Shown piece after piece: positions 119 to 64,000 of a DNA stretch of 64,000 nucleotides (the first letter of the stretch is position 1; each line of letters starts with the position of its first letter). The notes under the pieces are model-generated. The model had not been told where the DNA came from and searched no databases. It was given only the letters and a program-made list of their open reading frames with translations. The position numbers were made by a program, and so were the translations under genes. Source of the stretch: Hybos culiciformis (lineage: Eukaryota > Arthropoda > Insecta > Diptera > Hybotidae); NCBI GenBank assembly GCA_964007475.1, contig CAXFZM010000320.1:62001-126000 (forward strand). Direction: 5' to 3'.

Positions 119-796
119 TTATATATATTTCGTAGCCTGCTTGTAATATATTTGACTGGCATTTATGTCTCTATTCCATACAATTAAACATTTTTCGCAG
201 TGAGAATATCGGTGTGGACTTTTCGAGACTACATACCCGTCCAAGCAGCTGCTACATTTCTTCCTCGTGTTGTATTCGTTCACCATCTTCAGTTGAATTT
301 TCGGATGATCATTCAGCATTTTTGTTAACATTTTCAAAGGGGTCCGTATATACCCCTTCATTGGAGAATTAGACATAGTTTGGGTGCTTCCCAAGAAAAC
401 TGTTATTATTTTTTCTTTTTTGATCAAGCTTTCTTTAATAAATTTATTTAAAGCACCATTTCCACGGATATAAGCGTCAAATCTTATACAGGAAATTTTC
501 GGCCGAATGTAGGCTGTGGTTTTTGGTAAAAACCATGATAATGGGAATATCACATACTCCGACGTCCAGTTAGTCCACCAATCCTCTGTGGTGCTTTTCT
601 GGACATCATTATGTAGATTTTTTTGAATTTGTTTTTTTTATGTGAACTTTCCAAATTATGTTTTCTTGCATGATGCCTGTTATTAGAATAATACTCTTTT
701 GTTGAGTATTTAATGTTCTCCAAATTAGATAGAACATTTTTCTGGTTGTACGGGTCATCATTTATTGATCGCAAAGCTGCCACGAATATCTTATTA

Positions 797-1711
797 CACG
801 CAGAGAAATGCCTTTTCATTCAATATGATTATATCAGTCATAGACTCCTAATCATAACGAAAAAATAGCCCTATGATTAAAAATCTTCGCGCAAGATGAA
901 TAATCTTTGCATATAATTACTACGTTATACATCGTGATTATCTTATGATTTACCTGAAATCATAAGTTATGATGCTTAATCACGCTAGTCATAAGTTATG
1001 ATTAATACAAAAACATTTTTTTTTTACTTTTTATTTTATTTTAGGTGATTAAAATTCAGATTATTTACTTTAATTACTAAAATAATAGTACATAATTGAA
1101 ATTTTCTGTAATGTCGCTAAAAAAAATAAAAAACCAAATTTTTTTTGCTTTCTTCGGGATTCGAACATGCGTCCTTAACATTACAAATAGCCAACACACC
1201 ACACAGAAAATGTGTATACCAAATTTATATTTTCTATTTTATGTACATTTTAAATTTCAATACCGTAGCTGAGTGGTAGTGTTGGCGGATTGCAATGCTA
1301 AAGACCCAGGTTCGAATCCGGAAGAAGACATAAGGAAATAAAATTGTATAATTTAATAAAAATATATAATAAATAAAATTTAATAAATTAAAAAAATATT
1401 AAAATAAAATATAAAAAAATTAAATAAATAAAAAAAAATTAAATAAAAAAGTTAATAAAAAAAACTTAAATTTTATTTTCTTATGTAAAAAAGCAGCCAT
1501 TACTCGCTTTTAAGACATAAGAAATGAAATCGATATTATTGGGTTGCAGGATTTATGATTTTGCAGTCATAGTGATTGTTTTTACCCTTAGTCATTGTTT
1601 ATGATTAATATTTACGGTTTATGATTAGTTATTAAGAGCTGAGTTCTCTGACTGCTTTACGCATATGTACAATCGTCATAATCATAATATCTGACTGGAT
1701 TTCTCTCCGTG
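797..1711. mobile_element. MITE with TA target duplication in the RuvC-I codons
   Basis: The ends CACGCAGAGAAAT and CACGGAGAGAAAT (inverted) are flanked by TA on both sides. The uninterrupted sequence is seen in unit B at 23875 (TTATTACCAGG). TIR plus TA duplication fits a Tc1/mariner-type non-autonomous element. The interior is rich in AATCATAA repeats and holds two tRNA-like segments in opposite orientation (1149-1200 and 1262-1330). There is no transposase ORF. The same insertion is present in unit D at 56209-59250. Confidence 0.8.
1262..1330 (+). other. tRNA-like segment with Pol III A and B boxes
   Basis: Contains TAGCTGAGTGGTAG (A-box-like, 1266-1279) and GGTTCGAATCC (B box, 1309-1319) at tRNA spacing. 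An anticodon-stem-like pair TTGGC/GCTAA is present, but the acceptor stem does not pair, so this is a tRNA-derived (SINE-like) head rather than a functional tRNA. A degenerate inverted counterpart with TTCGAATCCCG on the minus strand lies at 1149-1200. Confidence 0.6.
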
Positions 1712-2626
1712 TACCAGGATCTATTCCAATATTCACTGGTGTTGGCTTTAATTCTTCTGTTATTTCAGATGGTTCTTCCTTTTCTGTTAAAAATTTTATA
1801 CAACAGGAAGTTCCATCTGTTGTAAAACCAATGCATTTCTTATTGTTTCGTGGCAGCTTCAAGTAATCATTGTAATCAATAGTGTTATTAAATTGTTCAA
1901 AATCTACATTAATATCCTTGTTTTTTTTTTTTTAACTTCATTTTCGGGCACTTTTTCAGCGAACATAACAATGCATTTGGAAGAACTTCAAATGCATCAA
2001 TTTTGTGAAAATGAGCCTTTTTCCATGGCATGATTTTCAAGGTTTCATTAGAGTCACTGGCGTCCTTCGAAAATAACCATTCCATGTTTTCCTTAATTTC
2101 TTTGCAATGTTCCTTAATATTTTCGATTACATTTAATTTAATCAAATAACACCTGACTCTCGAAAATGCGTGCTCCGTAATGTTATTTTTAAAGACTGTT
2201 GAATAAGTTTCTGCCAGAGCTCCGAATAGATTACTACGTGGTTTTTTGTTATATTTTTGTAATCCAATAATTCTGAGTCTTTCATATTCGGGAGATATAT
2301 CTTGATATTTGTTACAATTCATCAAACAATAAAAATATGCCCGAAAATCAAATTTTTTACAGTCATAGTCATTTGAATTCAATTTGCGCATCAATTGAAA
2401 ATTAATCAAAATTGATGCATTGTATGCCAAGATACTCATTTCGTCGACATCTTCTTGAATCTTGTCATTTAAGCTGTCATCTTTTATGACGCTTCTTAAT
2501 GATAACTTCACTGTTGTAACCCTAGTACCATCGACTATTTTAAATACACGTCTGGCGGTAGTTGTTATTTTTGCTTTTACTGTTGTTTTTGATGTTGTAT
2601 CGAGGCGATTCTTTTTCGCAGCCCCA

Positions 2627-3180
2627 TCAGTATCTGCTGTTGCCGCTTTTCTTTTTTGATGACTTCACTGGTTCTTCTTTTTTTTCCGCCACAGGAGCTT
2701 CTGGCTTATTTACTGCGGGGCCAATCTTTTTCGGCACTTTAATCAAAGCATCAAAGTGACCAAATATGCCAGAACCAGAGTGTCTCAATCTTTTTATTTC
2801 CAAATATTTCAATGGTGGACCGTATACGGCCTGCAAAACTTTATTAATGTACAAATGGAACTTGCAATTGAAAACTTGTGCCACTGCTTCTAGCTCGGCA
2901 GTGGATCCATATGTGTCATGACACATCATATCTGCCACATATGTATCTACATTTTCGTATGGCTTACCGGTATCCGTCATGGTTTTATTTTTATAACAAT
3001 ACCAAAACTCCTCAATGTATTCCACAATGTATTCCACAATGTCCTTCCGTACATGATACGAAAAATTTTGTGTACCATACATCAAGTATGATATCGAATT
3101 GAACAGGCATGCACTATCCCCGTTCACTTCGACAACTTGATATGGAACAATTTGTTCCCATTCTTTAAAACTTTCCACTG
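2627..3180 (-). pseudogene. OTU cysteine protease moiety, unit A
   Basis: OTU-type deubiquitinase-like domain of about 165 residues. The Cys region reads NGDSACLFNSISYL; the other units have NGDGACLF, so the Gly before Ala-Cys is mutated here. The distal His is probably in GIFGHFDALIKV. A Lys/Pro-rich tail (KKIGPAVNKPEAPVAEKK) follows and leads into the Fanzor part, but a 5-nt deletion relative to unit B breaks the frame near 2660. There is no ATG at the 5' end: the frame opens at a TTTCAG/T acceptor-like site (about 3180), so an upstream exon is likely. OTU proteases cleave ubiquitin chains; the substrate here is unknown. Confidence 0.8.
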
Positions 3181-4156
3181 AAATCCGCTGAAATCATAAA
3201 TATAATACAATATATAAAGAGATTGAAATAAAGGTTCTTATAATAATAATCTTAGAGATTTAGTATAAAATTCCAAAAAATGGATAATGTTTAACTTCCT
3301 CAGAAAAGCACTTTAGATGTGGATCAGAGCATTATCGATAAGGTAAATTTTTCAAAATATCTAATATATTATTGAAGGTAAGTTTTTGTTATCATTGTTA
3401 GAAATGGAATGAAAATGAGTTAGTAGCGACCGAAAGTGACCAAGTGCGTTTCATTGGGCTAAGTTTCATTGGGCACTTTGGGTTCAAATCAAATTTTTGT
3501 AAATATCTCTTGCTACTGCGCCGCCTACCGGGTCAAAAAAAATTTATTAAAGCACCAAACGAATAAATTGTTTCGAAATATTATTGTGGTTCCACATGCG
3601 CGGATCATAATACTAAATCACTTTTATAATATCTAACATATCTTGTGAATATTAATGCAATTGGTCGTGTCGTTTAGCGTTGATATTGATTAAAGAAAAT
3701 TGAATTAGATATATTAGTCCTAAAGGCCAATATTAATTAATAATTACATTTTTTTTTAATCAAAACATTTATGTTGGCTCTAATGAATATTTTAGGAAAA
3801 TTAACAGTGAATAGTCATCACTTAAATAATTCACAAGATTGTGTTACAACTGGGCAACCAAATTCGATGCAATCAAACATAAATAGTAAAACTGCAACAA
3901 TATTAGTATCAAAAACAAAAACTAAAAGAGAATTATCTTTACTCCTAAAAAATTATATTATTTAAAAAAAATCTAAAAAATTAAAATCACTTTTATTAAA
4001 TATATCTATTTTATTTATAATTACATTTATTATTATTTTTAAAACATATTTTATTTTAGTTTTAATATCAGAAATGAAAAAAGTACAAAATTCTTATTTT
4101 TAATTTTATTTAAAATAAGTTATTTAAACATCCTACTTATTTTAGGATTATATTCA
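3181..4156. other. Upstream region of the OTU-Fanzor gene, unit A
   Basis: About 1 kb conserved in all four units (26000-26983, 41224-42168 and 60720-61701 in the others). It should contain the missing first exon and the promoter, but I cannot place either. A 64-codon plus-strand frame (3771-3965) is present in every unit but looks like no known protein. Confidence 0.4.
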
Positions 4157-8242: not shown

Positions 8243-8252
8243 ACATATATTT

Positions 8253-10506: not shown

Positions 10507-10636
10507 TATAACACTGAATTTCCGAAAATGTGGGAACCATGTTATATATACTTTTTCTTGCTGGTTATTGAATTGCTGCTGGTGATTGTTTTAATGAATG
10601 ACGCTTATATCCATGCGTCCGCAGTTTGCTTTCCTA

Positions 10637-11119: not shown

Positions 11120-12073
11120 TTATATATATTTCGTAGCCTGCTTGTAATATGTTTGACTGGCATTTATGTCTCTATTCCATACAATTAAACATTTTTCGCA
11201 ATGAGAATATCGGTGTGGACTTTTCGAGACTACATGCCCGTCCAAGCAGCTGCTACATTTCTTCGTCGTGTTGTATTCGTTCACCATCTTCAGTTGAATG
11301 TTTTTTTTTTTTTATATACTCCTTCATTGGAGAATTAGACATAGTTTGGGTGCTTCCCAAGAAAACTGTTATCATTTTTTCTTTTTTGATCAAGCTTTCT
11401 TTAATAAATTTATTTAAAGCACCATTTCTTCGGATATAAGCGTCAAATCTTATACAGGAAATTTTCGGCCGAATGTAGGCTCTGGTTTTTGGTAAAAACC
11501 ATGATAATGGGAATATCACATACTCCGACGTCCAGTTAGTCCACCAATCCTCTGTGGTGCTTCTCTGGACATCGTTATGTAGATTTTTTTGAATTTCTTT
11601 TTTTTATGTGAACTTTCCAAATTATGTTTTCTTGCATGATGCCCGTTATTAAGGCTGTATTCCACTGTCTGTTCAATGCACAGATATCTGCTCAAAAAAA
11701 TTTGCTCAAAAAATGAACAAATTTGACTCTGTACAAATTGCTTTGCTCAATGTATTCCATTGTCTGTGCAATTGAGCAAATTTTTATCTGTACAATGTAT
11801 GCACAAACAAATGTCTGTACATAGAGTTTGTTCATATATTCCATTGTCTGCTCGCATAAAATATGTACAATGAAAAAAAAAGTTTGTTCAATTGGAAATC
11901 AAAATTTATAAATCTCATATATAATTTTTAAAAATTATATTATTACGAATTTTTTTTTTTTAAATTATTAACTTGAAAATTCACGAAATCAATGAAGAAA
12001 CAGCAAGTACGAAAAAAGATATAGAGAGTGAAGAAATTGCAGCAGTATTTGTGGTGCTTGGATCCTGTTATCT

Positions 12074-23105: not shown

Positions 23106-24621
23106 TTATTAAATTTTTTTTTTAATGATTTATATCATGAAATATATAATGACACTTGTATTGCGGTAATTACTGCGTTCATTTATAAAATATTGATGTT
23201 GATTAAAAAAATATATTTTGAAAATTCACACCTTTTTAAATTTTTCGAAAAAAATTTTTCGCCATCAAGCGCAACGCGTTTCTTGACATCAAGGGCTTTT
23301 AGCCACCTCATTACATCTTTAATTATAATATTCAAGAGACATAACATTTTTATTTTTTGCAAGTTTTGAACACGCATATTTTTATTCAGTATAGTGCACA
23401 GACCCAACCTACTCTAAAAAAAGCGAACCGTTCTAAAAAAGGTTAAATTTAAAAATAAAATAAATATTATCATGAATTTATTAAAAAAAAATCAAAACAT
23501 ATAAAAAAGTTTGCTCTGCAGTTTGTTTTGTATGAGCAGACTTTTTCTCTGCTCAAAATTGAACAAATTTTTGTACAGATACGATTAACAATGATTCCAC
23601 TATATGTACAAGGTACATATTTTTGTATGTACAAAAATGTACAGACAACAATGAGCAAACATTTTAGAGCAAACTAATTTGATGATTCCACTATCTGTGC
23701 AATGTTTGTGACGTTTTTGAGCAAATATCTGTGCATTGCATAGACAGTGGAATAAGACCTTTAGTACAATACTCTTTTGTTGAGTATTTAATGTTCTCCA
23801 AATTAGATAGAACATTTTTCTGGTTGTACGGGTCATCATTTATTGATCGCACAGCTGCCACGAATATCTTATTACCAGGATCTATTCCAATATTCACTGG
23901 TGTTGGCTTTAATTCTTCTGTTATTTCAGATGGTTCTTCCTTTTCTGTTAAAAATTTTATACAACAGGAAGTTCCATCTGTTGTAAAACCAATGCATTTC
24001 TTATTGTTTCGTGGCAGCTTCAAGTAATCATTGTAATCAATAGTGTTATTAAATTGTTCAAAATCTACATTAATATCCTTGTTTTTTTTTTTAAACTTTT
24101 CATTTTCGGGCACTTTTTCAGCGAACATAACAATGCATTTGGAAGAACTTCAAATGCATCAATTTTGTGAAAATGAGCCTTTTTCCATAGCATGATTTTC
24201 AAGGTTGGCGTCCTTTGAAAATAACCATTCCATGTTTTCCTTAATTTCTTTGCGATGTTCCTTAATATTTTCGATTTAATTTAATTTAATCAAATAACAC
24301 CTGACTCTCGAATATATCGTGCTCCGTAATGTTATTTTTAAAGACTGTTGAATAAGTTTCTGCCAGAGCTCCGAATAGATTACTACGTGGTTTTTTGTTA
24401 TATTTTTGTAATCCAATAATTCTGAGTCTTTCATATTCGGGAGATATATCTTGATATTTGTTACAATTCATCAAACAATAAAAATATGCCCGAAAATCAA
24501 TTTTTTTACAGTCATAGTCATTTGAACTCAATTTGCGCATCAATTGGAAATTAATCAAAATTGATGCCTTGTATGCCAAGATACTCATTTCGTCGACATC
24601 TTCTTGAATCTTATCATATAA

Positions 24622-25183
24622 TGCTAGAGATAGAGTCGACGTAATTCACGCGCGTATGCGCGCGTAAAAAAAACCTGTTTTTTTTACCTGTTATGCTCAA
24701 CGCCGTTCACATGCGAAAAACAAAAGAGAAAAAGAGAAAAATTAAATTAGAAAAATAAAATGGATTCTGTTTGTAATATTTTTATAATGCTTTTTAATTT
24801 ATTTATAACTTAATAAAACATAAAAAATTTTAATAAATTTGCAATAAATAATTATTTAATTTTTATTTTTGAATATAATTATATTTATGAACTTTTTTAT
24901 TTTATTAAATAATTATTTGTTTGTAAATTTTTTTTTTTCTAAATACAACAAAATAAACAACACAATTTTTTTTTCTAATTACAACAAAATAAACAACACA
25001 ATTATAAACAAATGATTTCCACAATGTACGGCGTAAAATACTGGGAAAGTTAAAATATTTCAACTTTTACGCGCGTAAGCTACGTTTTACGTCGTTGCGT
25101 ATAGCCGGTCTCATACATTTTCATACAATTTGATTTTTTACGTGCGTACACGCGCGTGAATTACGTCGACTCTATCTCTAGCA
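24622..25183. mobile_element. MITE with TAA duplication in Fanzor N-terminus
   Basis: 562 bp with long TIRs of about 40 bp (ends TGCTAGAGATAGAGTCGACG), flanked by TAA (24619-24621 and 25184-25186). The uninterrupted site is in unit C at 39255 (ATCATATAAGCTG). Next to the TIRs are CGCGCGTA repeats. A 3-bp TWA duplication suggests PIF/Harbinger mobilisation, but the TIR differs from the resident Harbinger. No ORF. Confidence 0.8.
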
Positions 25184-25484
25184 TAAGCTGTCATCTTTTA
25201 TGACGCTTCTTAATGATAACTTCACTGTTGTAACCCTAGTACCATCGACTATTTTAAATACACGTCTGGCGGTAGTTGTTATTATTGCTTTTACTGTTTT
25301 TTTTGAAGTTGTATCGAGGCGATTCTTTTTCGCAGCCCCATCAGTATCTGCTGTTGCCGCTTTTCTTTTTTGATGCTTTGACTTCACTGGTTCTGCTTCT
25401 TTTTTTCCGCCACAGGAGCTTTTGGCTTCTTTGCTGCGGGGCCAATATTTTTCTCTTTTCTTTTTATATTATTATGTGCCGCTT

Positions 25485-25999
25485 TTATTTTTTGACTTCA
25501 CTGGTTCTTTTTTTTTTCACCACTGGAGCTTCTGGCTTATTTACTGCGGGGCCAATCTTTTTCGGCACTTTAATCAAAGCATCAAAGTGACCAAATATGC
25601 CAGAACCAGAATGTCTCAATCTTTTTATTTCCAAATATTTCAATGGTGGACCATATACGGCCTTAAAAACTTTATTAATGTACAAATGGAACTTGCAATT
25701 GAAAACTTGTGCCGCTGCTTCTAGCTCGGCAGTGGATCCATATGTGTCATGACACATCATATCTGCCACATATGTATCTACATTTTCGTATGGCTTACCG
25801 GTATCCGTCATGGTTTTATTTTTATAACAATACCAAAACTCCTCAATGTACTCCACAATCTCCTTCCGTACATGATACGAAAAATTTTGTGTACCATACA
25901 TCAAGTATGATATCGAATTGAACAGACATGCACCATCCCCGTTCACTTCGACAACTTGATATGGAACAATTTGTTCCCATTCTTTAAAACTATCCACTG
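25485..25999 (-). pseudogene. OTU cysteine protease moiety, unit B
   Basis: Best preserved OTU part together with unit D. NGDGACLFNSISYL carries the catalytic Asp-Cys region, and GHFDALIKV probably the distal His. There is no ATG; the frame opens at the conserved acceptor-like TTTCAG (about 26000). The Lys-rich linker starts GPAVNKPEAPVVKKK and then shifts frame at 25485. Downstream (25484-25387), SKHQKRKAATADTDG continues into the Fanzor part, which supports an original fusion. Confidence 0.8.
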
Positions 26000-26983
26000 A
26001 AATCCGCTGAAATCATAAATATAATACAATATATAAAGTGATTAAAATAAAGGTTCTTATAATAAGAATCTTAGAGATTTAGTATAAAATTCCAAAAAAT
26101 GGATAATGTTTAACTTCCTCAGAAAAGCACTTTAGATGTGGATCAGAGCATTATCGATAAGGTAAATTTTTCAAAATATCTAATATATTATTGACGGTAA
26201 GTTTTTGTTATCATTGTTAGAAATGGAATGAAAATGAGTTATTAGCGACCGAAAGTGATCAAGTGCGTTTCATTGGGCTAAGTTTCATTGGGCACTTTGG
26301 GTTCAAATCAAATTTTTGTAAATATCTCTTGCTACTGCGCCGCCTACCGGGTCAAAAAAAATTTATTAAAGCACCAAACGAATAAATTATTTCGAAATAT
26401 TATTGTGGTTTCACATGCGCGGATCATAATACTAAATCACTTTTATAATATCTAACATATCTTGTGAATATTAATGCCATTGGTCGTGTCGTTTAGCGTT
26501 GATATTGATTAAAGGAAATTGAATTAGATATATTAGTCCTAAAGGCCAATATTAATTAATAATTACATTTTTTTTTTAATCAAAACATTTATGTTGGCTC
26601 TAATGAATATTTTAGGAAAATTAACAGTGAATAGTCATCACTTAAATAATTCACAAGATTGTGTTACAACTGGGCAACCAAATTCGATGCAATCAAACAT
26701 AAATAGTAAAACTGCAACAATATTAGTATCAAAAACAAAAACTAAAAGAGAATTATCTTTACTCTTAAAAAATTATATTATTTAAAAAAAAAAAAAAAAT
26801 CTAAAAAATTAAAATCACTTTTATTAAATATATCTATTTTATTTATAATTACATTTATTATTATTTTTAAAACATATTTTATTTTAGTTTTAATATCAGA
26901 AATGAAAAAAGCACAAAATTCTTATTTTTAATTTTATTTAAAATAAGTTATTTAAGCATCCTACTTATTTTAGGATTATATTC

Positions 26984-33051: not shown

Positions 33052-33178
33052 ATATTATTTTGTTGCGAAATAATTTCACTGCGAACCGGTTTATGAAATT
33101 TTAGGAAAGCATCACTCTGCTTGTGGAACATCTCTCGCACATTCCCGCACGAATACAACCGATTTTTCTTATATATAT
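33052..33178 (-). ncRNA. Candidate Fanzor guide RNA region, unit C
   Basis: Conserved block after the Fanzor stop (33179-33181), nearly identical to 11003-11119. Same reasoning and limits. Confidence 0.25.
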
Positions 33179-34040
33179 TTCCTAGCCTGCTTGTAATATG
33201 GTTGACTGGCATTTATGTCTCTATTCCATACAATTAAACATTTTTCGCAATGAGAATATCGGTGTGGACTTTTCGAGACTACATGCCCGTCCAAGCAGCT
33301 GCTACATTTCTTCGTCGTGTTGTATTCGTTCACCATCTTCAGTTGAATGTTTTTTTTTTTTTATATACTCCTTCATTGGAGAATTAGACATAGTTTGGGT
33401 GCTTCCCAAGAAAACTGTTATCATTTTTTCTTTTTTGATCAAGCTTTCTTTAATAAATTTATTTAAAGCACCATTTCTCCGGATATAAGCGTCAAATCTT
33501 ATACAGGAAATTTTCGGCCGAATGTAGGCTCTGGTTTTTGGTAAAAACCATGATAATGGGAATATCACATACTCCGACGTCCAGTTAGTCCACCAATCCT
33601 CTGTGGTGCTTCTCTGGACATCGTTATGTAGATTTTTATGAATTTCTTTTTTTTATGTGAACTTTCCAAATTATGTTTTCTTGCATGATGCCCGTTATTA
33701 AGGCTGTATTCCACTGTCTGTTCAATGCACAGATATCTGCTCAAAAAAATTTGCTCAAAAAATGAACAAATTTGACTCTGTACAAATTGCTTTGCTCAAT
33801 GTATTCCATTGTCTGTGCAATTGAGCAAATTTTTATCTGTACAATGTATGCACAAACAAATGTCTGTACATAGAGTTTGTTCATATATTCCATTGTCTGC
33901 TCGCATAAAATATGTACAATGAAAAAAAAAGTTTGTTCAATTGGAAATCAAAATTTATAAATCTCATATATAATTTTTAAAAATTATATTATTACGAATT
34001 TTTTTTTTTTAAATTATTAACTTGAAAATTCACGAAATCA

Positions 34041-38447: not shown

Positions 38448-39648
38448 TCGTATATTCTAGAACATTTTTCTGGTTGTACGGGTCATCATTTATTGATCGC
38501 ACAGCTGCCACGAATATCTTGTTAGCAGGATCTATTCCAATATTCACTGGTGTTGGCTTTAATTCTTCTGTTATTTCAGATAGTTCTTCCTTTTCTGTTA
38601 AAAATTTTATACAACAGGAAGTTCCATCTGTTGCATTTCTTATTGTTTCGTGGCAGCTTCAAGTAATCGTTGTAATTAATAGTGTTATTAAATTGTTCAA
38701 AATCTACATTAATATCCTTGTTTTTTTTTTTTTTAACTTTTCATTTTCGGGCACTTTTTCAGCGAACATAACAATGCATTTGGAAGTACTTCAAATGCAT
38801 CAATTTTGTGAAAATGAGCCTTTTTCCATAGCATGATTTTCAAGGTTGGCGTCCTTTGAAAATAACCATTCCATGTTTTCCTTAATTTCTTTGCGATGTT
38901 CCTTAATATTTTCGATTTAATTTAATTCAATCAAATAACACCTGACTCTCGAATATGCGTGCTCCGTAATGTTATTTTTAAAGACTGTTGAATAAGTTTC
39001 TGCCAGAGCTCCGAATAGATTACTACGTGGTTTTTTGTTATATTTTTGTAATCCAATAATTCTGAGTCTTTCATATTCGGGAGATATATCTTGATATTTG
39101 TTACAATTCATCAAACAATAAAAATATGCCCGAAAATCAATTTTTTTACAGTCATAGTCATTTGAATTAAATTTGCGCATCAATTGGAAATTAATCAAAA
39201 TTGATGCCTTGTATGCCAAGATACTCATTTCGTCGACATCTTCTTGAATCTTATCATATAAGCTGTCATCTTTTATGACGCTTCTTAATGATAACTTCAC
39301 TGTTGTAACCCTAGTACCATCGACTATTTTAAATACACGTCTGGCGGTAGTTGTTATTTTTGCTTTTACTGTTGTTTTTGAAGTTGTATCGAGGCGATTC
39401 TTTTTCGCAACCCCATCAGTATCTGCTGTTGCCGCTTTTCTTTTTTGATGCTTTGACTTCACTGCTTTTGGCTTCTTTGCTGCGGGCCCAATATTTTTCC
39501 CTTTTCTTTTTATATTATTATCTGCAGCTTTTACTTTTTGGTGCTTTGACTTCACTGGTTCTTTTTTTTTCTGCCACAGGAGCTTCTGGCTTCTTTGCTG
39601 CGGGGCCAATATTTTTCTCTTTTCTTTTTATATTATTATGTGCCGCTT

Positions 39649-40160
39649 TTATTTTTTGACTTCACTGGTTCTTTTTTTTTTCACCACTGGAGCTTCTGGC
39701 TTATTTACTGCGGGGCCAATCTTTTTCGGCACTTTAATCAAAGCATCAAAGTGACCAAATATGCCAGAACCAGAATGTCTCAATCTTTTTATTTCCAAAT
39801 ATTTCAATGGTGGACCATATACGGCCTTCAAAACTTTATTAATGTACAAATGGAACTTGCAATTGAAAACTTGTGCCGCTGCTTCTAGCTCGGCAGTGGA
39901 TCCATATGTGTCATGACACATCATATCTGCCACATATGTATCTACATTTTCGTATGGCTTACCGGTATCCGTCATGGTTTTATTTTTATAACAATACCAA
40001 AACTCCTCAATGTACTCCACAATCTCCTTCCGTACATGATACGAAAAATTTTGTGTACCATGCATCAAGTATGATATCTAATTAAACAGGCATGCACCAT
40101 CCCCGTTCACTTCGACAACTTGATATGGAACAATTTGTTCCCATTCTTTAAAACTTTCCC
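39649..40160 (-). pseudogene. OTU cysteine protease moiety, unit C
   Basis: Same OTU domain, but a TAG replaces Ser right after the catalytic ACLFN (about 40080), and the acceptor context reads CCCCTG. The open part (40068-39649) has the C-terminal half with GHFDALIKV and a frame break at KKKRTSEVKK. Confidence 0.8.
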
Positions 40161-40198
40161 CTGAAATCCGCTGAAATCATAAATATAATACAATATAT

Positions 40199-47585: not shown

Positions 47586-47890
47586 GTGATTCTGAAAGCC
47601 CTGAACTCACCATTTTCCTTAAATTCTTCAACATATCTCTTGTATCGCACTTTGGCATCAAGCTAATACATGCAAAAATATATAATATAAAAAAAATTAT
47701 TAAAAAATCGGGAAGCGTTGAACATGTTACAAAAAGTGTTGTGTCCATGATGTGGACAAAAGCTCGTGTATTCTAAAAGTTTTTGTAAATTTTGAAATAT
47801 TATTGGGCCCACATAAAAAAAATAAAAAATTTTATACTTTGACCAAGAACTCATTGTAAAAAAAAAAATTTTCAATTTTTTGTTGGACAT

Positions 47891-48315
47891 TGTAATGAGT
47901 TTGTTTTTATTTGTATTTTTATTTAAAGGGGATATTTACCATAGCTAAGAGCTTACGTATTGGTGTTCCTTGAGCTAATAGCTTAAGTATGGAACTTCTT
48001 TTATAATTTTTTTGGAAAAAGCTAAGAGCTGAAATTTTCCAAGGTTTTTATTTAAAATTAGCTAAGAGCTGAATTTATTGAAATAATACTTTCTCTTTTG
48101 TTGATAAAAACACTTATATTTTATTGATTGAAATTACAAGTCTTATATACTAATTAAAATTATACAAATATTATTTAGTAAGCAAAAATATTAATAACTA
48201 AACAAAAATTATGATTTTGATATTTATGCTTAGTTAACATATAATATAAACTTAAAAATTACAAAATAAAGGTGAGTGGATTGAACTTTGTGTTTACGTT
48301 GATAAACACACTACA
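47891..48315 (-). repeat. gypsy-2 3' LTR
   Basis: 425 bp, TGTAATGAG...CACTACA on the plus strand. The polypurine tract GGTGAGGG lies directly before it in reading direction (48316-48323). Internal repeats GCTAAGAGCT occur several times. Confidence 0.93.
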
Positions 48316-48373
48316 CCCTCACCGTTATAAGAAAAAAAAATTTTTGTTTAAAAAAAAAAATTTTTTTTTTGTT

Positions 48374-53436: not shown

Positions 53437-53548
53437 TACAATATTTCATTATGTGAATTTTTTTTTTTTTGTGTAATATGAATTTTTAGTGCATTTAATT
53501 TTAAATATTTTCAAATTGAAAAATTATACTTTTTTTTTTTTTGTTTTA

Positions 53549-53779
53549 TTAGGCAATAGTTATTCTATTCATTTCTTTTTTTACTTTTTTTTGTATAAAT
53601 TTTTCAATATAATGTAAGCAAAATTTTATGATTAAAACTACTAAAATAACAATTAGGATGATTTCGATATGGGACAATTGACGTGTTTCTTTTTCCAATT
53701 TTGGGTTGCTACTGGAAGCAGTATTAGGACCACTATTGTTGAAAACTACTTCGCTTTGCTTCGATTGCTCCGATCCCAT
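53549..53779 (-). CDS. gypsy-2 leader ORF: myristoylation motif plus membrane segment
   Basis: 76 residues starting MGSEQSKQ, which fits the N-myristoylation consensus (Gly2, Ser6), then a Ser/Asn-rich stretch, one hydrophobic helix (IEIILIVILVVLIIKF) and a basic tail (KKVKKEMNR). Predicted small membrane protein. It lies between the 105-codon ORF, which it overlaps by 47 nt, and gag. Not a usual Ty3/gypsy gene; function unknown. Confidence 0.55.
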   Translation of the reverse strand: MGSEQSKQSEVVFNNSGPNTASSSNPKLEKETRQLSHIEIILIVILVVLIIKFCLHYIEKFIQKKVKKEMNRITIA

Positions 53780-54050
53780 GACTCAATGTTGAAGATAATT
53801 TTTTGTTAATTCTTTTTAGGTCTTGAATCTGTTTCCGTTGTTTCTTTAACAATTCAATCTTCTTGATGAATTCCTTTTTTTGATTCTTGTCGATGGTTAG
53901 GGACGCTATTCTGTGTAATTCACCGATCTGTCTGTTGATGGTGACTATGGTGCCTCCTCGTTTGAAATAATTTCCTTTTTGCTTCTCAATTGGAATTGGA
54001 ATTGGATCTGATCGTTGCTTGTTTATTTGACGCAATCTATAGTCTTCCAA
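53733..54050 (-). CDS. gypsy-2 leader ORF: basic helical protein
   Basis: 105 residues, highly basic and predicted helical (KKIELLKKQRKQIQDLKRINKK, shown in part as IELLKKQRKQIQ), possibly a coiled coil. First ORF after the primer site. Overlaps the membrane ORF in another frame. No homologue recognised. Confidence 0.5.
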   Translation of the reverse strand: MEDYRLRQINKQRSDPIPIPIEKQKGNYFKRGGTIVTINRQIGELHRIASLTIDKNQKKEFIKKIELLKKQRKQIQDLKRINKKLSSTLSHGIGAIEAKRSSFQQ

Positions 54051-54137
54051 TGTTATCGGTTTTGGACCAGCTGAAGGGTTCTTTTTAATTTCTTCGTCGA
54101 TAGTGTTCTTTGAGATAATAAAAAAAGGTTTGTGAGT

Positions 54138-54152
54138 TTGGCAGGATCGCCA
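54138..54152 (-). promoter_or_regulatory. gypsy-2 primer binding site
   Basis: TGGCGATCCTGCCAA directly after the 5' LTR. Differs from gypsy-1; the tRNA was not identified. Confidence 0.7.
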
Positions 54153-54577
54153 TGTAATGAGTTTGTTTTTATTTGTATTTTTATTTAAAGGGGATATTTA
54201 CCATAGCTAAGAGCTTACGTATTGGTGTTCCTTGAGCTAATAGCTTAAGTATGGAACTTCTTTTATAATTTTTTTGGAAAAAGCTAAGAGCTGAAATTTT
54301 CCAAGGTTTTTATTTAAAATTAGCTAAGAGCTGAATTTATTGAAATAATACTTTCTCTTTTGTTGATAAAAACACTTATATTTTATTGATTGAAATTACA
54401 AGTCTTATATACTAATTAAAATTATACAAATATTATTTAGTAAGCAAAAATATTAATAACTAAACAAAAATTATGATTTTGATATTTATGCTTAGTTAAC
54501 ATATAATATAAACTTAAAAATTACAAAATAAAGGTGAGTGGATTGAACTTTGTGTTTACGTTGATAAACACACTACA
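54153..54577 (-). repeat. gypsy-2 5' LTR
   Basis: 425 bp; no difference from the 3' LTR seen by eye, indicating a recent insertion. Confidence 0.93.
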
Positions 54578-54944
54578 ACATGTTACAAAATTAAAATTTG
54601 AATAGGAATAAATGTGACTTATCTGACATTTATTATTGAATGATGAAGTTTTTTTTGATCAAGTATGCCATGCCATTTATAAAACAAAATGATTCTTGCA
54701 AGTAATAGAAAGTCAAAAGTTCACTTACCTTCTTTTTAATTTCCTTTGTTTTTTCCATATTTCTAATAAAAATTAAGCACTCAACTTTGAACTTACCAAA
54801 ATAATAATTGAGACAGATTTTAAAGTTTTGCACAACGTTGCCGCTTGGCTTAAAGTGTGTTTCAAGGTTTCCGGGAGTGAAAAAAAAAAAAAACTTTTTT
54901 TAATTTCAGTGGCAATTCCGTCTTACGAGATTTTTGCCCATATA

Positions 54945-55412
54945 CTTTTTCTTGCTGGTTATTGAATTGCTGCTGGTGATTGTTTTAATGAATGACGCTT
55001 ATATCCATGTGTCCGCAGTTTGCTTTCCTACCGGTTCGCACCGGTTCCCACGATCCGTTTATTATAAATCTTATAGTTCGTGCGAACCGGCTATTTGAAA
55101 TTATTAGGAAATTTAATCGCGATTATATTATGTCAAATTTTAAAATATTTGTTTATCGGTTATAAATTATTTCAAATTTAAAGTTATTATATTTAAAATA
55201 CAACTGCATATGTAAAAAGTTGGTTAAATAATCGTAATCCTGATTATACCAGGGTGGAAAAATTTAACCCAAATAATATAGTGAAATTCAAAAAATATTT
55301 GAAATTATTTAATTAATTTTTAATTATTTTATTAATTTTTAATTCTTATTTTTTTTTTTCTAAGTTTCGTTTTATGTAAATATTTTTAAAAAAAAATTTT
55401 TTTTTTTTTAAT
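54945..55412. other. Junction region C/D
   Basis: Matches 10547-11002: the CCGGTTCGCAC hairpin and AT-rich DNA up to the next unit start. No gene. Confidence 0.6.
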
Positions 55413-55530
55413 ATATTATTTTGTTGCGAAATAATTTCACTGCGAACGGGTTTATGAAATTTTAGGAAAGCATCACTCTACTTGTGGAACATTTCTCGCA
55501 CATTCCCGCACGAATACAACCGATTTTTTC
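55413..55530 (-). ncRNA. Candidate Fanzor guide RNA region, unit D
   Basis: Same conserved block after the Fanzor stop (55531-55533), with one change in the GAACCGG motif (GAACGGG). Inference from position. Confidence 0.25.
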
Positions 55531-56208
55531 TTATATATATTTCGTAGCCTGCTTGTAATATATTTGACTGGCATTTATGTCTCTATTCCATACAATTAAA
55601 CATTTTTCGCAATGAGAATATCGGTGTGGACTTTTCGAGACTACATGCCCGTCCAAGCAGCTGCTACATTTCTTCCTCGTGTTGTATTCGTTCACCATCT
55701 TCAGTTGAATTTTCGGATGATCATTCAGCATTTTTGTTAACATTTTCAAAGGGGTCCGTATATACCCCTTCATTGGAGAATTAGACATAGTTTGGGTGCT
55801 TCCCAAGAAAACTGTTATTATTTTTTCTTTTTTGATCAAGCTTTCTTTAATAAATTTATTTAAAGCACCATTTCTACGGATATAAGCGTCAAATCTTATA
55901 CAGGAAATTTTCGGCCGAATGTAGGCTGTGGTTTTTGGTAAAAACCATGATAATGGGAATATCACATACTCCGACGTCCAGTTAGTCCACCAATCCTCTG
56001 TGGTGCTTCTCTGGACATCATTATGTAGATTTTTTTGAATTTGTTTTTTTTATGTGAACTTTCCAAATTATGTTTTCTTGCATGATGCCTGTTATTAGAA
56101 TAATACTCTTTTGTTGAGTATTTAATGTTCTCCAAATTAGATAGAACATTTTTCTGGTTGTACGGGTCATCATTTATTGATCGCAAAGCTGCCACGAATA
56201 TCTTATTA

Positions 56209-59200
56209 CACGCAGAGAAATGCCTTTTCATTCAATATGATTATATCAGTCATAGACTCCTAATCATAACGAAAAAATAGCCCTATGATTAAAAATCTTC
56301 GCGCAAGATGAATAATCTTTGCATATAATTACTACGTTATACATCGTGATTATCTTATGATTTACCTGAAATCATAAGTTATGATGCTTAATCACGCTAG
56401 TCATAAGTTATGATTAATACAAAAACATTTTTTTTTTACTTTTTATTTTATTTTAGGTGATTAAAATTCAGATTATTTACTTTAATTACTAAAATAATAG
56501 TACATAATTGAAATTTTCTGTAATGTCGCTAAAAAAAATAAAAAACCAAATTTTTTTTGCTTTCTTCGGGATTCGAACATGCGTCCTTAACATTACAAAT
56601 AGCCAACACACCACACAGAAAATGTGTATACCAAATTTATATTTTCTATTTTATGTACATTTTAAATTTCAATACCGTAGCTGAGTGGTAGTGTTGGCGG
56701 ATTGCAATGCTAAAGACCCAGGGGTGGAATTATGTAACTTTGTCGTTTTTGTGACAATCGACAATTTCAAACACGATCAATTTGTATGGACAATGAAAAT
56801 TATTGCTTCGCGTATTTAATCATCATCATCTGTTGTATATTATATTTCTTTCTGGCAAAAAAAAGAGTTTATTTCCTCTCTTTAAGAGAAAATATATACA
56901 AAGTAAAGCTTACTTCAAGAAAAGAAGAGTCCAAATTGTAAATGTGTGGGTTATAAAACTTAATAAAAACCTAAAATTTCAACTGATTTATAGAGTGAAC
57001 TTTGATTTATAAAATATTTAAAAAAATTGAGCGCGGAGAAAAAAAAATTATGTACCTACTTTTTTTGAATTTAATAGACAATTGTCGAAAAAAAGTTTGG
57101 CTTCACATAACTGAAATTATAGACAATTGTCTATCAAATAAAAACGACAGCTATTTTTTGGTCGTCAATTTTAAAACAATAAATTAATAAATCAAAATTT
57201 TTTTTTTATAAAATGTCAATTTACTTTTATTCAACAAATGATTTTATTTCGTAACCATTGATAAGGATTACGTTTTTTTTTTTTTGTTTTTTTTTAATTA
57301 TTTCCATTTCGTCGAAGGTTCAAACTGTTGTTGAATAAAGAATAAACATTTATAAGCATCTTAAAAAAATAAAACGTTTTATTTTTGAAGTGAATTAAAA
57401 ACTTCAATAATAAGAAAGTCTAGATATTTGGCCATTAATTTCTAAATTATAAATTAACAAAAACTATAATGTATCATGTTAAAATTTTGATTTACGATTT
57501 TATGAATTGTAGGAGGTGAGAAGGGCTAATATTTAATCCTTGAATGGCAGTTTTCAAGATGCCTTATTGAATGTTATTTATTATAGAATTTTTTTATTTT
57601 TGGGCCATTTGATAGTTTAATATTTTTATCTGATTGACCATTATTGAAAGAAAATACTTGGCTTATTTATAAAAATAATTAAAATAAATTGTTTATTCTT
57701 AAACAATTGTTTTATAGTTATAATTTATTCTCTAATTAAAATTTAATTTTTTAAACACTAAAAATCATTTAAATTAGTTATGGCTCCTAAAACCTAAATT
57801 TTTATAAAAATTTATTATTTCCTAGATAATGATCAGAAATTAAAATTATAAAATTTGAATTAGATACCAATGTAAATATGTACATAATTCAAGGAAAATT
57901 ATTTGCTTTGACTCAGCTAAAAGATGCAAAACTAAAGAAGCACGTTTGATAAGTCATTCTATTGTTATGTTATTTATCTCTTAGATAATATTGTCAAGGA
58001 AGAAATATGAATCGGAACAAACGAAGTATGTTAAATATTAACACAAAATTTGACCCAAGCAGAAGTACTTAGTTCTGAATAAAATAAAATCGGTTAAGAA
58101 AATAATCATTTTTTAATTAAATAAATACATTTTAATGAAGTAAAATAATGGTTTTGTTTTTCCAAAATTAAAGAATTGATTGAAATATTTGTTTAAAATT
58201 TATCTTTAAAATAAGTAGGTACTTTTAATCAATATGAAAGCATAAGTTAAATAGATGAGTTCTAAACATTTTTATGATTTACGAATTATAAATAAAACAC
58301 AATTATGAAAAAGTGTAAAATAAGTATGCGTAATTTTAAAAAAATTTCATAAAACCTTAAATTCACAATTTATGCGAAATTGAAGTGAACACCACACCAC
58401 ATACGAAATAAAAAATTTTCTATATCAATTTTCACGTTGCCATTATAAAGAATACAACTAAAAACCTTTTGTTAGTGTATGTTTTAAAATCATAAATACA
58501 GTACAAAATTTTGAGTTTGTTTACTAAATTAAGAAATTATTGAGAGAGAAAAAATGTGGTTTAATATTTAAAAAAAATTCTCTACACTATATTTTTTGCT
58601 AAAACGATATTTAAAAATTCACGATATTTTTCCATGAAGCAAAAAAGTCGAATTGGTCGTGTTTGTGATCGAAGTCGACAATTAAAAAATTTTTTTTTCG
58701 TTAATTTCTGAATAATATTATGAGAAATGTGATTTCCACCTATTAAAATTACATGAAGCAAAAAGTCGACAATTGTTAAATTTTGTGACAATTGTCGATT
58801 GTCGACCGGTGACAATTGTTATATGATTCCACCCCAGGTTCGAATCCGGAAGAAGACATAAGGAAATAAAATTGTATAATTTAATAAAAATATATAATAA
58901 ATAAAATTTAATAAATTAAAAAAATATTAAAATAAAATATAAAAAAATTAAATAAATAAAAATTAAATAAAAAAAAATTAAATAAAAAAGTTAATAAAAA
59001 AAACTTAAATTTTATTTTCTTATGTAAAAAAGCAGCCATTACTCGCTTTTAAGACATAAGAAATGAAATCGATATTATTGGGTTGCAGGATTTATGATTT
59101 TGCAGTCATAGTGATTGTTTTTACCCTTAGTCATTGTTTATGATTAATATTTACGGTTTATGATTAGTTATTAAGAGCTGAGTTCTCTGACTGCTTTACG

Positions 59201-59250
59201 CATATGTACAATCGTCATAATCATAATATCTGACTGGATTTCTCTCCGTG
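56209..59250. mobile_element. TA-flanked MITE, unit D copy (with nested element)
   Basis: Same insertion as 797-1711, flanked by TA (56207-56208 and 59251-59252), enlarged by a 2.1-kb nested element at 56723-58833 that splits its tRNA-like segment. Confidence 0.8.
56723..58833. mobile_element. 2.1-kb TIR element nested in the MITE
   Basis: Ends GGTGGAATTATGTAAC and GTTATATGATTCCACC. The uninterrupted site is in unit A at 1300-1312. Flanking CCAGG gives a 5-bp duplication, but GGG/CCC at the ends also allows 3 bp (CAG), so the superfamily is open. GACAATTGTC and GTCGACAATT motifs recur in the subterminal regions (about 56750, 57070-57130, 58675, 58765-58815). Frames are short; no transposase. 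Confidence 0.75.
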
Positions 59251-60165
59251 TACCAGGATCTATTCCAATATTCACTGGTGTTGGCTTTAATTCTTCTGTT
59301 ATTTCAGATGGTTCTTCCTTTTCTGTTAAAAATTTTATACAACAGGAAGTTCCATCTGTTGTAAAACCAATGCATTTCTTATTGTTTCGTGGCAGCTTCA
59401 AGTAATCATTGTAATCAATAATGTTATTAAATTGTTCAAAATCTACATTAATATCCTTGTTTTTTTTTTTTTAACTTCATTTTCGGGCACTTTTTCAGCG
59501 AACATAACAATGCATTTGGAAGAACTTCAAATGCATCAATTTTGTGAAAATGAGCCTTTTTCCATGGCATGATTTTCAAGGTTTCATTAGAGTCACTGGC
59601 GTCCTTCGAAAATAACCATTCCATGTTTTCCTTAATTTCTTTGCAATGTTCCTTAATATTTTCGATTACATTTAATTTAATCAAATAACACCTGACTCTC
59701 GAAAATGCGTGCTCCGTAATGTTATTTTTAAAGACTGTTGAATAAGTTTCTGCCAGAGCTCCGAATAGATTACTACGTGGTTTTTTGTTATATTTTTGTA
59801 ATCCAATAATTCTGAGTCTTTCATATTCGGGAGATATATCTTGATATTTGTTACAATTCATCAAACAATAAAAATATGCCCGAAAATCAAATTTTTTACA
59901 GTCATAGTCATTTGAATTCAATTTGCGCATCAATTGAAAATTAATCAAAATTGATGCATTGTATGCCAAGATACTCATTTCGTCGACATCTTCTTGAATC
60001 TTATCATTTAAGCTGTCATCTTTTATGACGCTTCTTAATGATAACTTCACTGTTGTAACCCTAGTACCATCGACTATTTTAAATACACGTCTGGCGGTAG
60101 TTGTTATTTTTGCTTTTACTGTTGTTTTTGATGTTGTATCGAGGCGATTCTTTTTCGCAGCCCCA

Positions 60166-60719
60166 TCAGTATCTGCTGTTGCCGCTTTTCTTTTTTGATG
60201 ACTTCACTGGTTCTTCTTTTTTTTCCGCCACAGGAGCTTCTGGCTTATTTACTGCGGGGCCAATCTTTTTCGGCACTTTAATCAAAGCATCAAAGTGACC
60301 AAATATGCCAGAACCAGAGTGTCTCAATCTTTTTATTTCCAAATATTTCAATGGTGGACCGTATACGGCCTGCAAAACTTTATTAATGTACAAATGGAAC
60401 TTGCAATTGAAAACTTGTGCCACTGCTTCTAGCTCGGCAGTGGATCCATATGTGTCATGACACATCATATCTGCCACATATGTATCTACATTTTCGTATG
60501 GCTTACCGGTATCCGTCATGGTTTTATTTTTATAACAATACCAAAACTCCTCAATGTATTCCACAATGTATTCCACAATCTCCTTCCGTACATGATACGA
60601 AAAATTTTGTGTACCATACATCAAGTATGATATCGAATTGAACAGGCATGCACCATCCCCGTTCACTTCGACAACTTGATATGGAACAATTTGTTCCCAT
60701 TCTTTAAAACTTTCCACTG
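60166..60719 (-). pseudogene. OTU cysteine protease moiety, unit D
   Basis: Uninterrupted OTU domain with NGDGACLFNSISYL and GHFDALIKV. A duplicated IVEY (IVEYIVEYIEEFW) is shared with unit A. It ends in the frame break EPVKSSKKKSGNSRY. The frame opens at TTTCAG/T rather than an ATG. Most complete OTU copy, together with unit B. Confidence 0.82.
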
Positions 60720-61700
60720 AAATCCGCTGAAATCATAAATATAATACAATATATAAAGAGATTGAAATAAAGGTTCTTATAATAATAATCTTAGAGATTT
60801 AGTATAAAATTCCAAAAAATGGATAATGTTTAACTTCCTCAGAAAAGCACTTTAGATGTGGATCAGAGCATTATCGATAAGGTAAATTTTTCAAAATATC
60901 TAATATATTATTGAAGGTAAGTTTTTGTTATCATTGTTAGAAATGGAATGAAAATGAGTTAGTAGCGACCGAAAGTGACCAAGTGCGTTTCATTGGGCTA
61001 AGTTTCATTGGGCACTTTGGGTTCAAATCAAATTTTTGTAAATATCTCTTGCTACTGCGCCGCCTACCGGGTCAAAAAAAATTTATTAAAGCACCAAACG
61101 AATAAATTGTTTCGAAATATTATTGTGGTTCCACATGCGCGGATCATAATACTAAATCACTTTTATAATATCTAACATATCTTGTGAATATTAATGCAAT
61201 TGGTCGTGTCGTTTAGCGTTGATATTGATTAAAGAAAATTGAATTAGATATATTAGTCCTAAAGGCCAATATTAATTAATAATTACATTTTTTTAATCAA
61301 AACATTTATGTTGGCTCTAATGAATATTTTAGGAAAATTAACAGTGAATAGTCATCACTTAAATAATTCACAAGATTGTGTTACAACTGGGCAACCAAAT
61401 TCGATGCAATCAAACATAAATAGTAAAACTGCAACAATATTAGTATCAAAAACAAAAACTAAAAGAGAATTATCTTTACTCTTAAAAAATTATATTATTT
61501 AAAAAAAAAAAAAAAATCTAAAAAATTAAAATCACTTTTATTAAATATATCTATTTTATTTATAATTACATTTATTATTATTTTTAAAACATATTTTATT
61601 TTAGTTTTAATATCAGAAATGAAAAAAGTACAAAATTCTTATTTTTAATTTTATTTAAAATAAGTTATTTAAGCATCCTACTTATTTTAGGATTATATTC

Positions 61701-63596
61701 AACTAGCTGTACCCGCACACACGTTGTTGTGGAACACACGTTTTAAGTGAAATTTTTGTTGTCAAATTTATGAACAATTATAGGAGCTAGTTATTTTATA
61801 AATTTGGGAAAATATCTAAGAAGAATTAATTTATCTTTTCTACTTATTCAACACTTAAATTGTATGTAATCGAATGATATCCTTCCCTTAAACAGGTTTG
61901 CAAACCAAACCAAATTTGTGTTTTTATCCATTTCCTCTTTTTATGAATCAAATTTGAATGAAATCGGAAGAACTTTTGCAGTCCTCCCCGGGAGATATTT
62001 CTCAGTAGGGTGCCATTCAAATTTTAAAATAGCCTATAACGACCCCGAGACAAAGAGACGGTGTAAATTTCGAAACGATCGGTTGAGTTGTTTAGTTTTT
62101 AATATTCTGTAGTTATTAGTAATAAAGAAATTGATTTCTATATATTCGAAGAGACCCCCTAAAAAGATGGGGCCAAATTTTTGTTACGAAATTCGTGTGT
62201 TTAATCATTTTTATGTACCAAATTTAAATGAAATCGGATAAAATTTTGAAGTCCTCCCCTATAGGACGAGGTCAATAAATTTTTTGTTACGAATTTATGT
62301 GTAATCATTTCCTCTTTTTACGTGTCAAATTTAAATGAAATTTGTTCCGAAATTGTGTGTAATTATTTTTTTGTTCCGAAATTGTGTGTAATTATTTCCT
62401 CTTCTTGACATACCAAATTTGAATGAAATCAAACGAACTTTTAAAGTCCGCCCCGAGGGGCGTTCCATGTGTAGGATGTCAACAAATTTTTTGTTACGAA
62501 ATTTGTGTGTAATTTTATATACCAAATTTAAATGAAATCGGACAAACTTTTAAAGTCCGCCCTCAGGGAGGTCTCTGGGTAGGAGGTCAACAAATTTGTT
62601 GTTACGAAATTTGTATGTAATCAGTTCCTCTTTTTACATACCAAATTTGAATGAAATCGGACGAAGTTTTGAGGTCCGCCCCCCAGGGAAGGTCTCTCGG
62701 TAGGAGGTCCCTGGGTAGGAGGTCAACTAATTTTTTGTTACGAAATTTGTGTAATCAGTTCTTCTTTTTACTTACCAAATTTGAATGAAATCGGAAGAAC
62801 TTTTAAAGTTCGCCCCCAGGGAGGTCTCTGGGTAGGAGGTCCCTGAATAGGAGGTCAGCAAAATTTTTGTTACAAAATTTGTGTGTAATCAGTTCCTCTG
62901 TTTACATACCAAATTTGAATGAAATCGAACGAACTTTTGAAGTCCGCCCCGAGGGGAGTTCCATGTGTAGGATGTCAACAAATTTTTTGTTACGAAATTT
63001 GTGTGTAATTTTATATATCAAATTTAAATGAAATCGGACAAACTTTTAAAGTCCGCCTTCAGGGAGGTCTCTGGGTAGGAGGTCAACAATTTTTTAGTCA
63101 CGAAATTTGTGTGTAATCAGTTCATCTTTTAACATACCAAATTTGAATGAAATCGGACAAACTTTTGAGGTCCGCCCCCCAGTGAAGGTCCCTGGGTAGG
63201 AGGTCAACAAATTTGTTGTTACGAAATTTGTGTAATCAGTTCTTCTTTTTACATACCATATTTGAATGAAATCGGACGAACTTTTAAAATCCGCCCCGAG
63301 AGGAGATCCCTGGGTAGGAGGTCAACAAATATTTTGTTACGGAATTTGTTTGTAACCACTTCCTCTTTTTACGTACCAAATTTGAATAAAATCGGACGAA
63401 CTTTTGAAGTCTGCCCCCGGGGGAGGTCTCTGGGTAGGAGGCCAATCAAATTTTAAAATAGCCTATAACGACCCCCGACTTGACACAAAGACATGGTGTA
63501 AGTTTGAAAACGATCGGTTGAGCGGTTTAGGAGCCTATTCGGAACAGACAAACAGACAAAGAGACAAAGGGACAACTTCTGCTTTATATATTAGAT
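61701..63596. repeat. Interspersed repeat with minisatellite, unit D
   Basis: Same repeat as 4157-6082, nearly identical to unit A with small internal losses. 60720-61700 before it is the conserved gene-upstream region. Confidence 0.75.
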
Positions 63597-64000
63597 GATT
63601 TTAAAAAAAAATTTTGTTTCTTAAAATCAATTGACATCAATTAGTTCATTTTCACGATTTTTTCGCTTTCATTAATAATAAGAACTCTTTAAAACGAACG
63701 TTTCGTTTTATTTTATTTAATTAGTCGCGCAATTTAATTACGTGTATGTGCTTAAATAAACTCTCATTTAAGAAACATGTTATGTATAGTATGCATATAA
63801 TGATGCTTTTCAAGATATTTTTTTAAATTAAAATATGATTCAAGGAAATCATATATACAAACTAAACTTTAATTTATATAAATAATATTTACATCCATGA
63901 TACAATATATGCGCTAATCTTGTGCATAGTATGTACAATGTAGATATGAATAATGAATACGAATATAAGCATAAAACATTTTGTTTTGAAAATTTTTTTT

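Follow-up and report, generated by a model that had tools for sequence, protein, structure and literature searches.

On the minus strand of a 64,000-nucleotide stretch from the fly Hybos culiciformis (the window; C291:62001-126000 in a 342-Mb genome of 509 contigs, the assembly covered by our genome-wide searches), an OTU cysteine-protease domain is followed by a Lys/Ala-rich linker and then by a Fanzor1 nuclease, which raises the question whether the two are parts of one protein or products of neighbouring genes. One such unit, unit D (minus strand, 55,531-60,732), contains all the motifs named in a preliminary description of the locus (NGDGACLFN, GHFDAL, FTTDGTS, NIGIDPG, CSSC, CEKC and WNRDINAS), and Pfam recognises both parts (PF02338 and PF07282), which bears out the domain order proposed there. 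In all likelihood, four such units in the window, all of them decayed, are copies of a gene that encoded a single OTU-linker-Fanzor1 protein; a complete frame of this gene survives elsewhere in the genome as locus L001.

An intact OTU-linker-Fanzor1 frame

A search of the genome with the Fanzor protein P0001 gave at least 88 matches, three of which span query residues 24-563 (L001, L002 and L003). At L001 (49.80 Mb on C2; C2:49,800,955-49,803,447), the OTU, the linker and a complete Fanzor1 are read in one stop-free frame of 831 codons, in which Pfam finds both domains (OTU PF02338, 31.6 bits; TNB, 41.1 bits). L002 has a stop-free frame of 746 codons from the middle of the OTU through the linker to the nuclease end, with only the TNB domain detected by Pfam, and L003 contains four stops. 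The preliminary description had favoured an ancestral single protein and proposed a search for intact copies; run in the same genome, that search returned L001, which upholds the proposal. L001 is the decisive evidence that the fusion exists as a real gene in this genome. The same copy lies in the 10-kb fetched locus L009 (as L010 holds the copy of L002), of which 500 dinucleotide shuffles gave a longest open frame of 195 codons, and its 411-base linker stayed open in none of 1000 shuffles. This linker has 136 residues, including 32 Lys and 25 Ala, and contains in-frame repeats; no Met occurs within the 204 codons that precede the nuclease.

Both catalytic sets are retained in L001: the Cys, His and Asp of the OTU, the D, E and D of the nuclease, and the C4 zinc ribbon. 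The OTU residues of L009 lie in GDGACLF (Cys29) and GHFDAL (His142, Asp144), of which we take the His-x-Asp to be the catalytic pair, as in OTU enzymes. The PF02338 matches span the first 83-89 of 128 profile positions, all of them above the cut-off of 23.3 bits. For the nuclease, passages of PMC3627910 define a Fanzor1 motif, D-X(125,275)-[TS][TS]xx-C4 zinc finger-X(5,50)-RD, and two further conserved residues, corresponding to G500 and E536 of SPu-1. L009 has D592, then 180 residues to TT at 773, CSSC...CKKC and RD at 805, and L010 agrees likewise; the additional residues are G732 and E770 in L009 (spacing 38) and G464 and E502 in P0001. In unit D of the window, the second T of the motif is R (NTRKKCSSC) and the frame is broken.

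The frame opens at GATTTCAG in eight of nine copies displayed, L025 having CAA for CAG; L023 and L024 lack GATTTCAG at this point and read AATAG. The GATTTCAG at the frame opening looks like a 3' splice site, and the start codon would then be supplied by an upstream exon. Comparison of the upstream regions gave no convincing match to such an exon among those listed, and blastn found no similarity between the two subfamilies described below upstream of the frame opening.

A second subfamily and relatives without the OTU

The nucleases of L009 and L010 are 74% identical (dS 0.41, dN 0.15) and represent two subfamilies. The second also joins the parts in frame: L023 has one frame of 338 codons with the OTU, the linker and the Fanzor N-terminus (OTU, 38.4 bits with PF02338), L026 one of 268 codons from the OTU into the nuclease (34.4 bits), and L002/L010 the 746 codons mentioned above. 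The join is therefore repeated in a diverged subfamily, although the copies of this subfamily that join OTU, linker and Fanzor in frame are all broken. Together with L001, these loci show the architecture, the single frame, the conserved catalytic residues and the same join in both subfamilies.

We then counted the linkage of the two parts in 20 fetched loci and the window, taking as Fanzor N-termini the matches that start at nuclease residue 6 or earlier; copies of one array were counted singly, and window units A, C and D were included (none in frame), unit B being left out. A same-strand OTU lies within 1 kb upstream of 24 of the 30 N-termini, and in eight of these the N-terminus still shares its open frame with an OTU motif. 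The other six are L014, L015, L016, L017 and two matches that lie ~170 bases or less from where a fetched stretch ends. Conversely, a whole-genome OTU search gave 86 matches, on our reading all but five in or beside regions with Fanzor matches (the five being four at C3:21.31 Mb and a weak one at C2:74.05 Mb); an OTU array on C1 extends ~9 kb beyond the last listed Fanzor match.

Two arrays lie outside the window. At C1:124,027,725-124,072,805 (L023, L024), OTU plus Fanzor N-terminus form a dense tandem array with ~1-1.5 kb spacing, mostly without the rest of the nuclease. At C2:60,357,908-60,407,093 (L010, L012, L027, L028), Fanzor C-terminal parts (query residues 224-563) are repeated in tandem every ~2.3 kb; several are stop-free, and the nearly complete L002 stands at one end.

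Protein searches returned sets of one, one and seven proteins, P0001 being in two of them; the aphid protein P0002 matches the OTU at 36%. P0001, P0003 and P0004 start with a Met and ~24-32 Lys/Arg-rich residues ahead of the nuclease fold. In a tree of 10 rows, L009, L010 and L014 fall on one branch (support 100/99) next to P0001, a clustering equalled in 13 of 500 label shuffles when L014, which has no OTU within 1 kb upstream, is counted as fused by subfamily. Since Fanzor-only relatives start at a Met of their own shortly ahead of the nuclease fold, the OTU looks to have been added, in the lineage leading to the genes of this genome; the relatives are known from their proteins and may have a separate OTU gene in their flanks. 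A viral home is not supported: when IMG/VR was scanned by a few short patterns, P0001 picked out 9 stretches, the Fanzor alignment 25 and the OTU alignment 11, and no match was confirmed. A prokaryote genome scan, also by a few short patterns, matched 33 stretches, none confirmed.

Several observations weigh against a gene for one fused protein. L001 is the sole complete intact copy seen, and it has no in-frame ATG ahead of the OTU core; in the L009 frame, Met occurs for the first time at residue 23. L002/L010, L012 and L011 break within the OTU. Structure prediction, which had been proposed for both domains, recovered the Fanzor1 fold for the relative P0001 but gave an AlphaFold2 model of the OTU with a pLDDT of only 40.6. 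Neither L009 nor L010 has a match in Rfam, and no omega RNA was identified. Three relatives (P0001, 563 aa; P0003, 570 aa; P0004, 551 aa), known from the protein alone, are Fanzor-only and have their own Met, and the linkers of the second subfamily hold Mets at -40 and -79, possible starts of a nuclease without OTU. Lastly, some dN/dS values (Nei-Gojobori, with codon bootstrap intervals) are high: 0.76 (0.52-1.18) for the L010/L011 nucleases and, for the OTU over 144 codons each, 0.59 (0.36-0.95) between L009 and L026 and 0.63 (0.39-1.01) and 0.61 (0.37-1.02) between L009 and L023, the partner copies being themselves broken further on.

The Fanzor-only relatives and the Mets of the second-subfamily linkers would fit an OTU gene lying just upstream of a Fanzor gene, with the fusion apparent only in decayed DNA, as would the fact that no window unit joins both parts in one open frame. 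Separate intact genes had been named in advance as the result that would speak against a fusion; Fanzor-only proteins exist, yet no intact locus with OTU and Fanzor as separate genes was seen among the fetched loci. Two neighbouring genes are very improbable in view of the single L001 frame over both parts, a linker open where no shuffle is, the lack of Met before the L009 nuclease and the in-frame join in the second subfamily.

A fusion that arose as a gene and is now dead everywhere, with L001 a young undecayed copy and the arrays repeat DNA without a protein role, has more in its favour: the window copies and most other fetched copies are broken, the arrays resemble satellite growth, and the OTU intervals reach 0.95-1.02. 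Part of the L009 region has also been duplicated recently, a 4.2-kb stretch around the nuclease end being found again on contig C3 at 99.98% (L009 1036-5283, L020 1-4247). We nevertheless regard this history as unlikely, because L001 keeps the full 831-codon frame and both catalytic sets, and because nuclease dN/dS between the subfamilies (L009/L010) is 0.37 (0.28-0.51; 541 codons), so that the nuclease was under constraint between them. The OTU was probably under constraint as well, with wide intervals and partly decayed partners: values for L009 are 0.44 against window unit D and 0.50 against L022, both intervals exceeding 1. The first 180 nuclease codons give 0.44 (0.23-0.90) between L009 and unit D, and OTU and linker of close second-subfamily copies give 1.61 and 1.01, with few changes.

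The tandem units of the window

By tblastn, the window contains four OTU copies, each followed in order by Fanzor pieces, on the minus strand. The order given in the preliminary description for four units is thus correct, but these are not four witnesses: they are head-to-tail tandem duplicates of a single locus and amount to one observation. Treatment as independent cases is ruled out by this duplication, in which A and D closely resemble each other, as do B and C. The junctions lie at 10546, 32615 and 54940.

Units of the head-to-tail array:
1-10545, unit A, cut by the window end
10546-32614, unit B
32615-54939, unit C
54940-64000, unit D, cut by the window end

Parts of the units:
60169..60732, minus strand, unit D OTU with GDGACLF and GHFDAL, running into the first part of the Lys-rich linker; 44.4 bits with Pfam PF02338 (cut-off 23.3); GATTTCAG, probably a 3' splice site, lies ahead of it
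59451..60203, minus strand, unit D, last part of the linker and N-terminal half of Fanzor; offset from the OTU frame by one base; matches P0001
59174..59470, minus strand, unit D Fanzor piece with FTTDGTS and RuvC-I NIGIDPG
56210..59250, unit D insertion directly after NIGIDPG; an element with a TA duplication and inverted termini CACG.AGAGAAAT, like the one in A; interrupted in turn by 2.1 kb inserted at 56723-58832
55965..56231, minus strand, unit D Fanzor piece past the insertion (NKIFVAALRS...)
55534..56049, minus strand, unit D Fanzor C-terminal piece with NEYNTRKKCSSC...CEKC zinc ribbon and WNRDINAS; Pfam PF07282 Cas12f1-like_TNB 36.6 bits (cut-off 26.3)
2630..3193, minus strand, unit A OTU with GDSACLF (Gly to Ser beside the catalytic Cys)
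1635..2664, minus strand, unit A linker end and Fanzor N-terminal half up to NIGIDPG, in two frames
122..819, minus strand, unit A Fanzor C-terminal pieces
25488..26012, minus strand, unit B OTU
23694..25375, minus strand, unit B linker and Fanzor N-terminal half, split by a ~0.56-kb insertion; NIGIDPG-NKIFVAAVRS read through, i.e. without the A/D insertion
11123..11603, minus strand, unit B Fanzor C-terminal pieces, 12.1 kb off, beyond Harbinger- and Gypsy-like insertions
39673..40176, minus strand, unit C OTU, with a stop immediately after CLFN
38920..39627, minus strand, unit C, single frame that comprises the tandem-repeat linker and the N-terminal part of Fanzor; same phase as the OTU, with stops between
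33172..33652, minus strand, unit C, C-terminal pieces of Fanzor, separated from the N-terminal part by a 3.7-kb Harbinger-like insertion

Every window unit is broken, and the window copies are dead. The breaks between the parts had been described as small and differing by type; compared with B and C, units A and D have indeed lost 5 bases where OTU and Fanzor meet, but the nuclease also carries insertions, of ~0.9 kb in A, 12.1 kb in B, 3.7 kb in C and 3.0 kb in D. OTU and Fanzor N-terminus share one phase in C, with intervening stops, whereas they are offset by one base in B and, through the 5-base difference, in A and D. No unit has an in-frame ATG between GHFDAL and VKLSL. Small deletions of ~11 and 14 bases also break the copies, and ~37 nuclease residues (VLPN/ALLCSL) that L001, L002 and P0001 keep are missing from all four units, so that the array probably grew from a founder with this damage. 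Runs of A contain or adjoin two of the breaks, as would be seen if they were sequencing slips and the genes were really intact; this has practically no chance of being correct, given the kilobase insertions within the nuclease of all four units, and the stops, the two deletions and the common loss are unlike such slips. The gap after NIGIDPG in A and D was also considered as an intron, which is ruled out by its inverted termini, the TA duplication and its absence from B. Between the OTUs of A/D and B/C there are six fixed differences in 505 alignment positions, four of them at third positions, too few to show selection.

Identity is 98.7-99.5% between A and D and ~92-98% between A/D and B/C for most long blocks outside short-period repeats. 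About 6.4 kb are common to A and D at 98.7-99.5% (window 4629-5939 and similar), and B and C have a different insertion history; this pattern of sharing suggests that the duplicated blocks were larger than one unit. Harbinger-like elements occupy the same site in B (20437-23105) and C (34026-36736) and are ~99% identical, so that their insertion probably predates the B/C duplication. An ~8.5-kb insertion between C and D (approx. 46473-54943) starts with GGGCAAAAATCTCG, ends with CGAGATTTTTGCCC, has 14-base perfect inverted termini and carries a 166-codon open reading frame (ORF) with SDGPG at 47109-47606; inside it is a Gypsy-like element with identical 425-base long terminal repeats (47891-48315 and 54153-54577). 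The names Gypsy and Harbinger are presumptive assignments from motifs. Upstream of the OTU in each unit is a minisatellite with a period of ~109-150 bases (4364-6015, 27200-28660, 42380-43800 and 61909-63530). About 20 bases past the nuclease end, an insertion of ~470 bases with repeated CCGGTTCGCA in both orientations is found in the window (55012-55483) and in L014 (4658-5130); it is present in window units and L014 and absent from L009.

Amplification of a founder that had lost ~37 nuclease residues, including conserved columns, and amplification on C1 of the OTU with only the Fanzor N-terminus, would be compatible with a nuclease-dead, DNA-binding protein in which the OTU is the active part and Fanzor merely targets it. 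We judge such a protein improbable: the L001 nuclease is complete, with D, E, D and the zinc ribbon, and the nuclease is more constrained than the OTU.

Possible roles and known systems

Fanzor1 proteins make RNA-guided cuts, and OTU enzymes take off ubiquitin. The predicted protein would consist of an N-terminal OTU deubiquitinase-type domain, a Lys/Ala-rich repeat linker of ~136 residues and a C-terminal Fanzor1 RNA-guided nuclease. By analogy with other Fanzor1 proteins, it would bind omega RNA and cut DNA; the basic linker may keep it on nucleic acid, and the OTU, tethered by this linker, would remove ubiquitin near the nuclease. The OTU could strip ubiquitin from the nuclease complex and extend the life of the complex, a role to which we give nearly even chances. 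Its action on histones or repair factors at the cut, such that repair favours the element, is a more tentative proposal, and a passenger OTU, or one with another role, is rather unlikely. Judged from the sequence, the full proposal, in which an expressed 831-codon protein makes RNA-guided cuts in DNA and deubiquitinates itself or chromatin and repair proteins at the cut, may hold, with confidence well short of even.

The nuclease resembles the Fanzor1 proteins SpuFz, PpFz and GtFz, as presented in passages of PMC3627910, PMC10432273 and PMC11423790, in the conserved motif, the Fanzor1 G and E and the fold of P0001. It differs from known Fanzor1 by ~290 extra N-terminal residues with the OTU and the repeat linker, and by its tandem arrays; transposon ends were not found: the similarity of L009 to the array stops near 4062 and 10182 with only five chance-like 11-base inverted matches, and the array hides the unit ends. 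Fanzor1 with an OTU module is a new form of Fanzor1. No description of a Fanzor-OTU fusion was found in the accessible portions of the full-text literature searched, most subscription journals lying outside it; in the relevant passages of PMC11071296 the OTU sits in adintovirus PolB and Fanzor is a separate remark, and 'protease' in those of PMC10432273 and PMC11423790 refers to reagents.

Two other mobile elements offer partial parallels. Ginger1 DNA transposases carry a C-terminal OTU or Ulp1 domain (passages of PMC2836005) and thus also fuse a mobile-element enzyme to an OTU-type cysteine protease, but the enzyme is a DDE transposase rather than an RNA-guided nuclease and the OTU is at the C-terminus. 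Helentrons, in insects and other animals, likewise carry an OTU cysteine protease, but encode it in a separate ORF next to Rep/helicase; the related Helitrons are noted to occur in tandem arrays (passages of PMC4067079). No Rep/helicase was seen among window ORFs of at least 110 codons, no family search of the rest having been made. The Ginger1 and Helentron cases indicate, as far as these passages go, that mobile elements have taken up such proteases. OTUD5/OTUD1 structures (PDB 3pfy, 3tmo, 4bop) are matched weakly but significantly (E 8e-5 to 9e-4) in the region of the catalytic Cys; these proteins have no nuclease, and the matched stretch stops before the catalytic His of the query.

The Fanzor relatives examined begin with a short basic N-terminus, unlike the OTU fusion. 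As two diverged subfamilies have the join in frame, ubiquitin seems to be of importance to at least one eukaryotic lineage of RNA-guided nucleases. A suggestion in passages of PMC2836005, that transposase OTU and Ulp1 domains act in transposition or repair, becomes testable with the OTU-Fanzor fusion, which could also serve as a natural model for designing nucleases of controlled stability. If the proposed activities are confirmed, this protein would couple programmable cleavage to regulation of the ubiquitin response that DNA breaks elicit.

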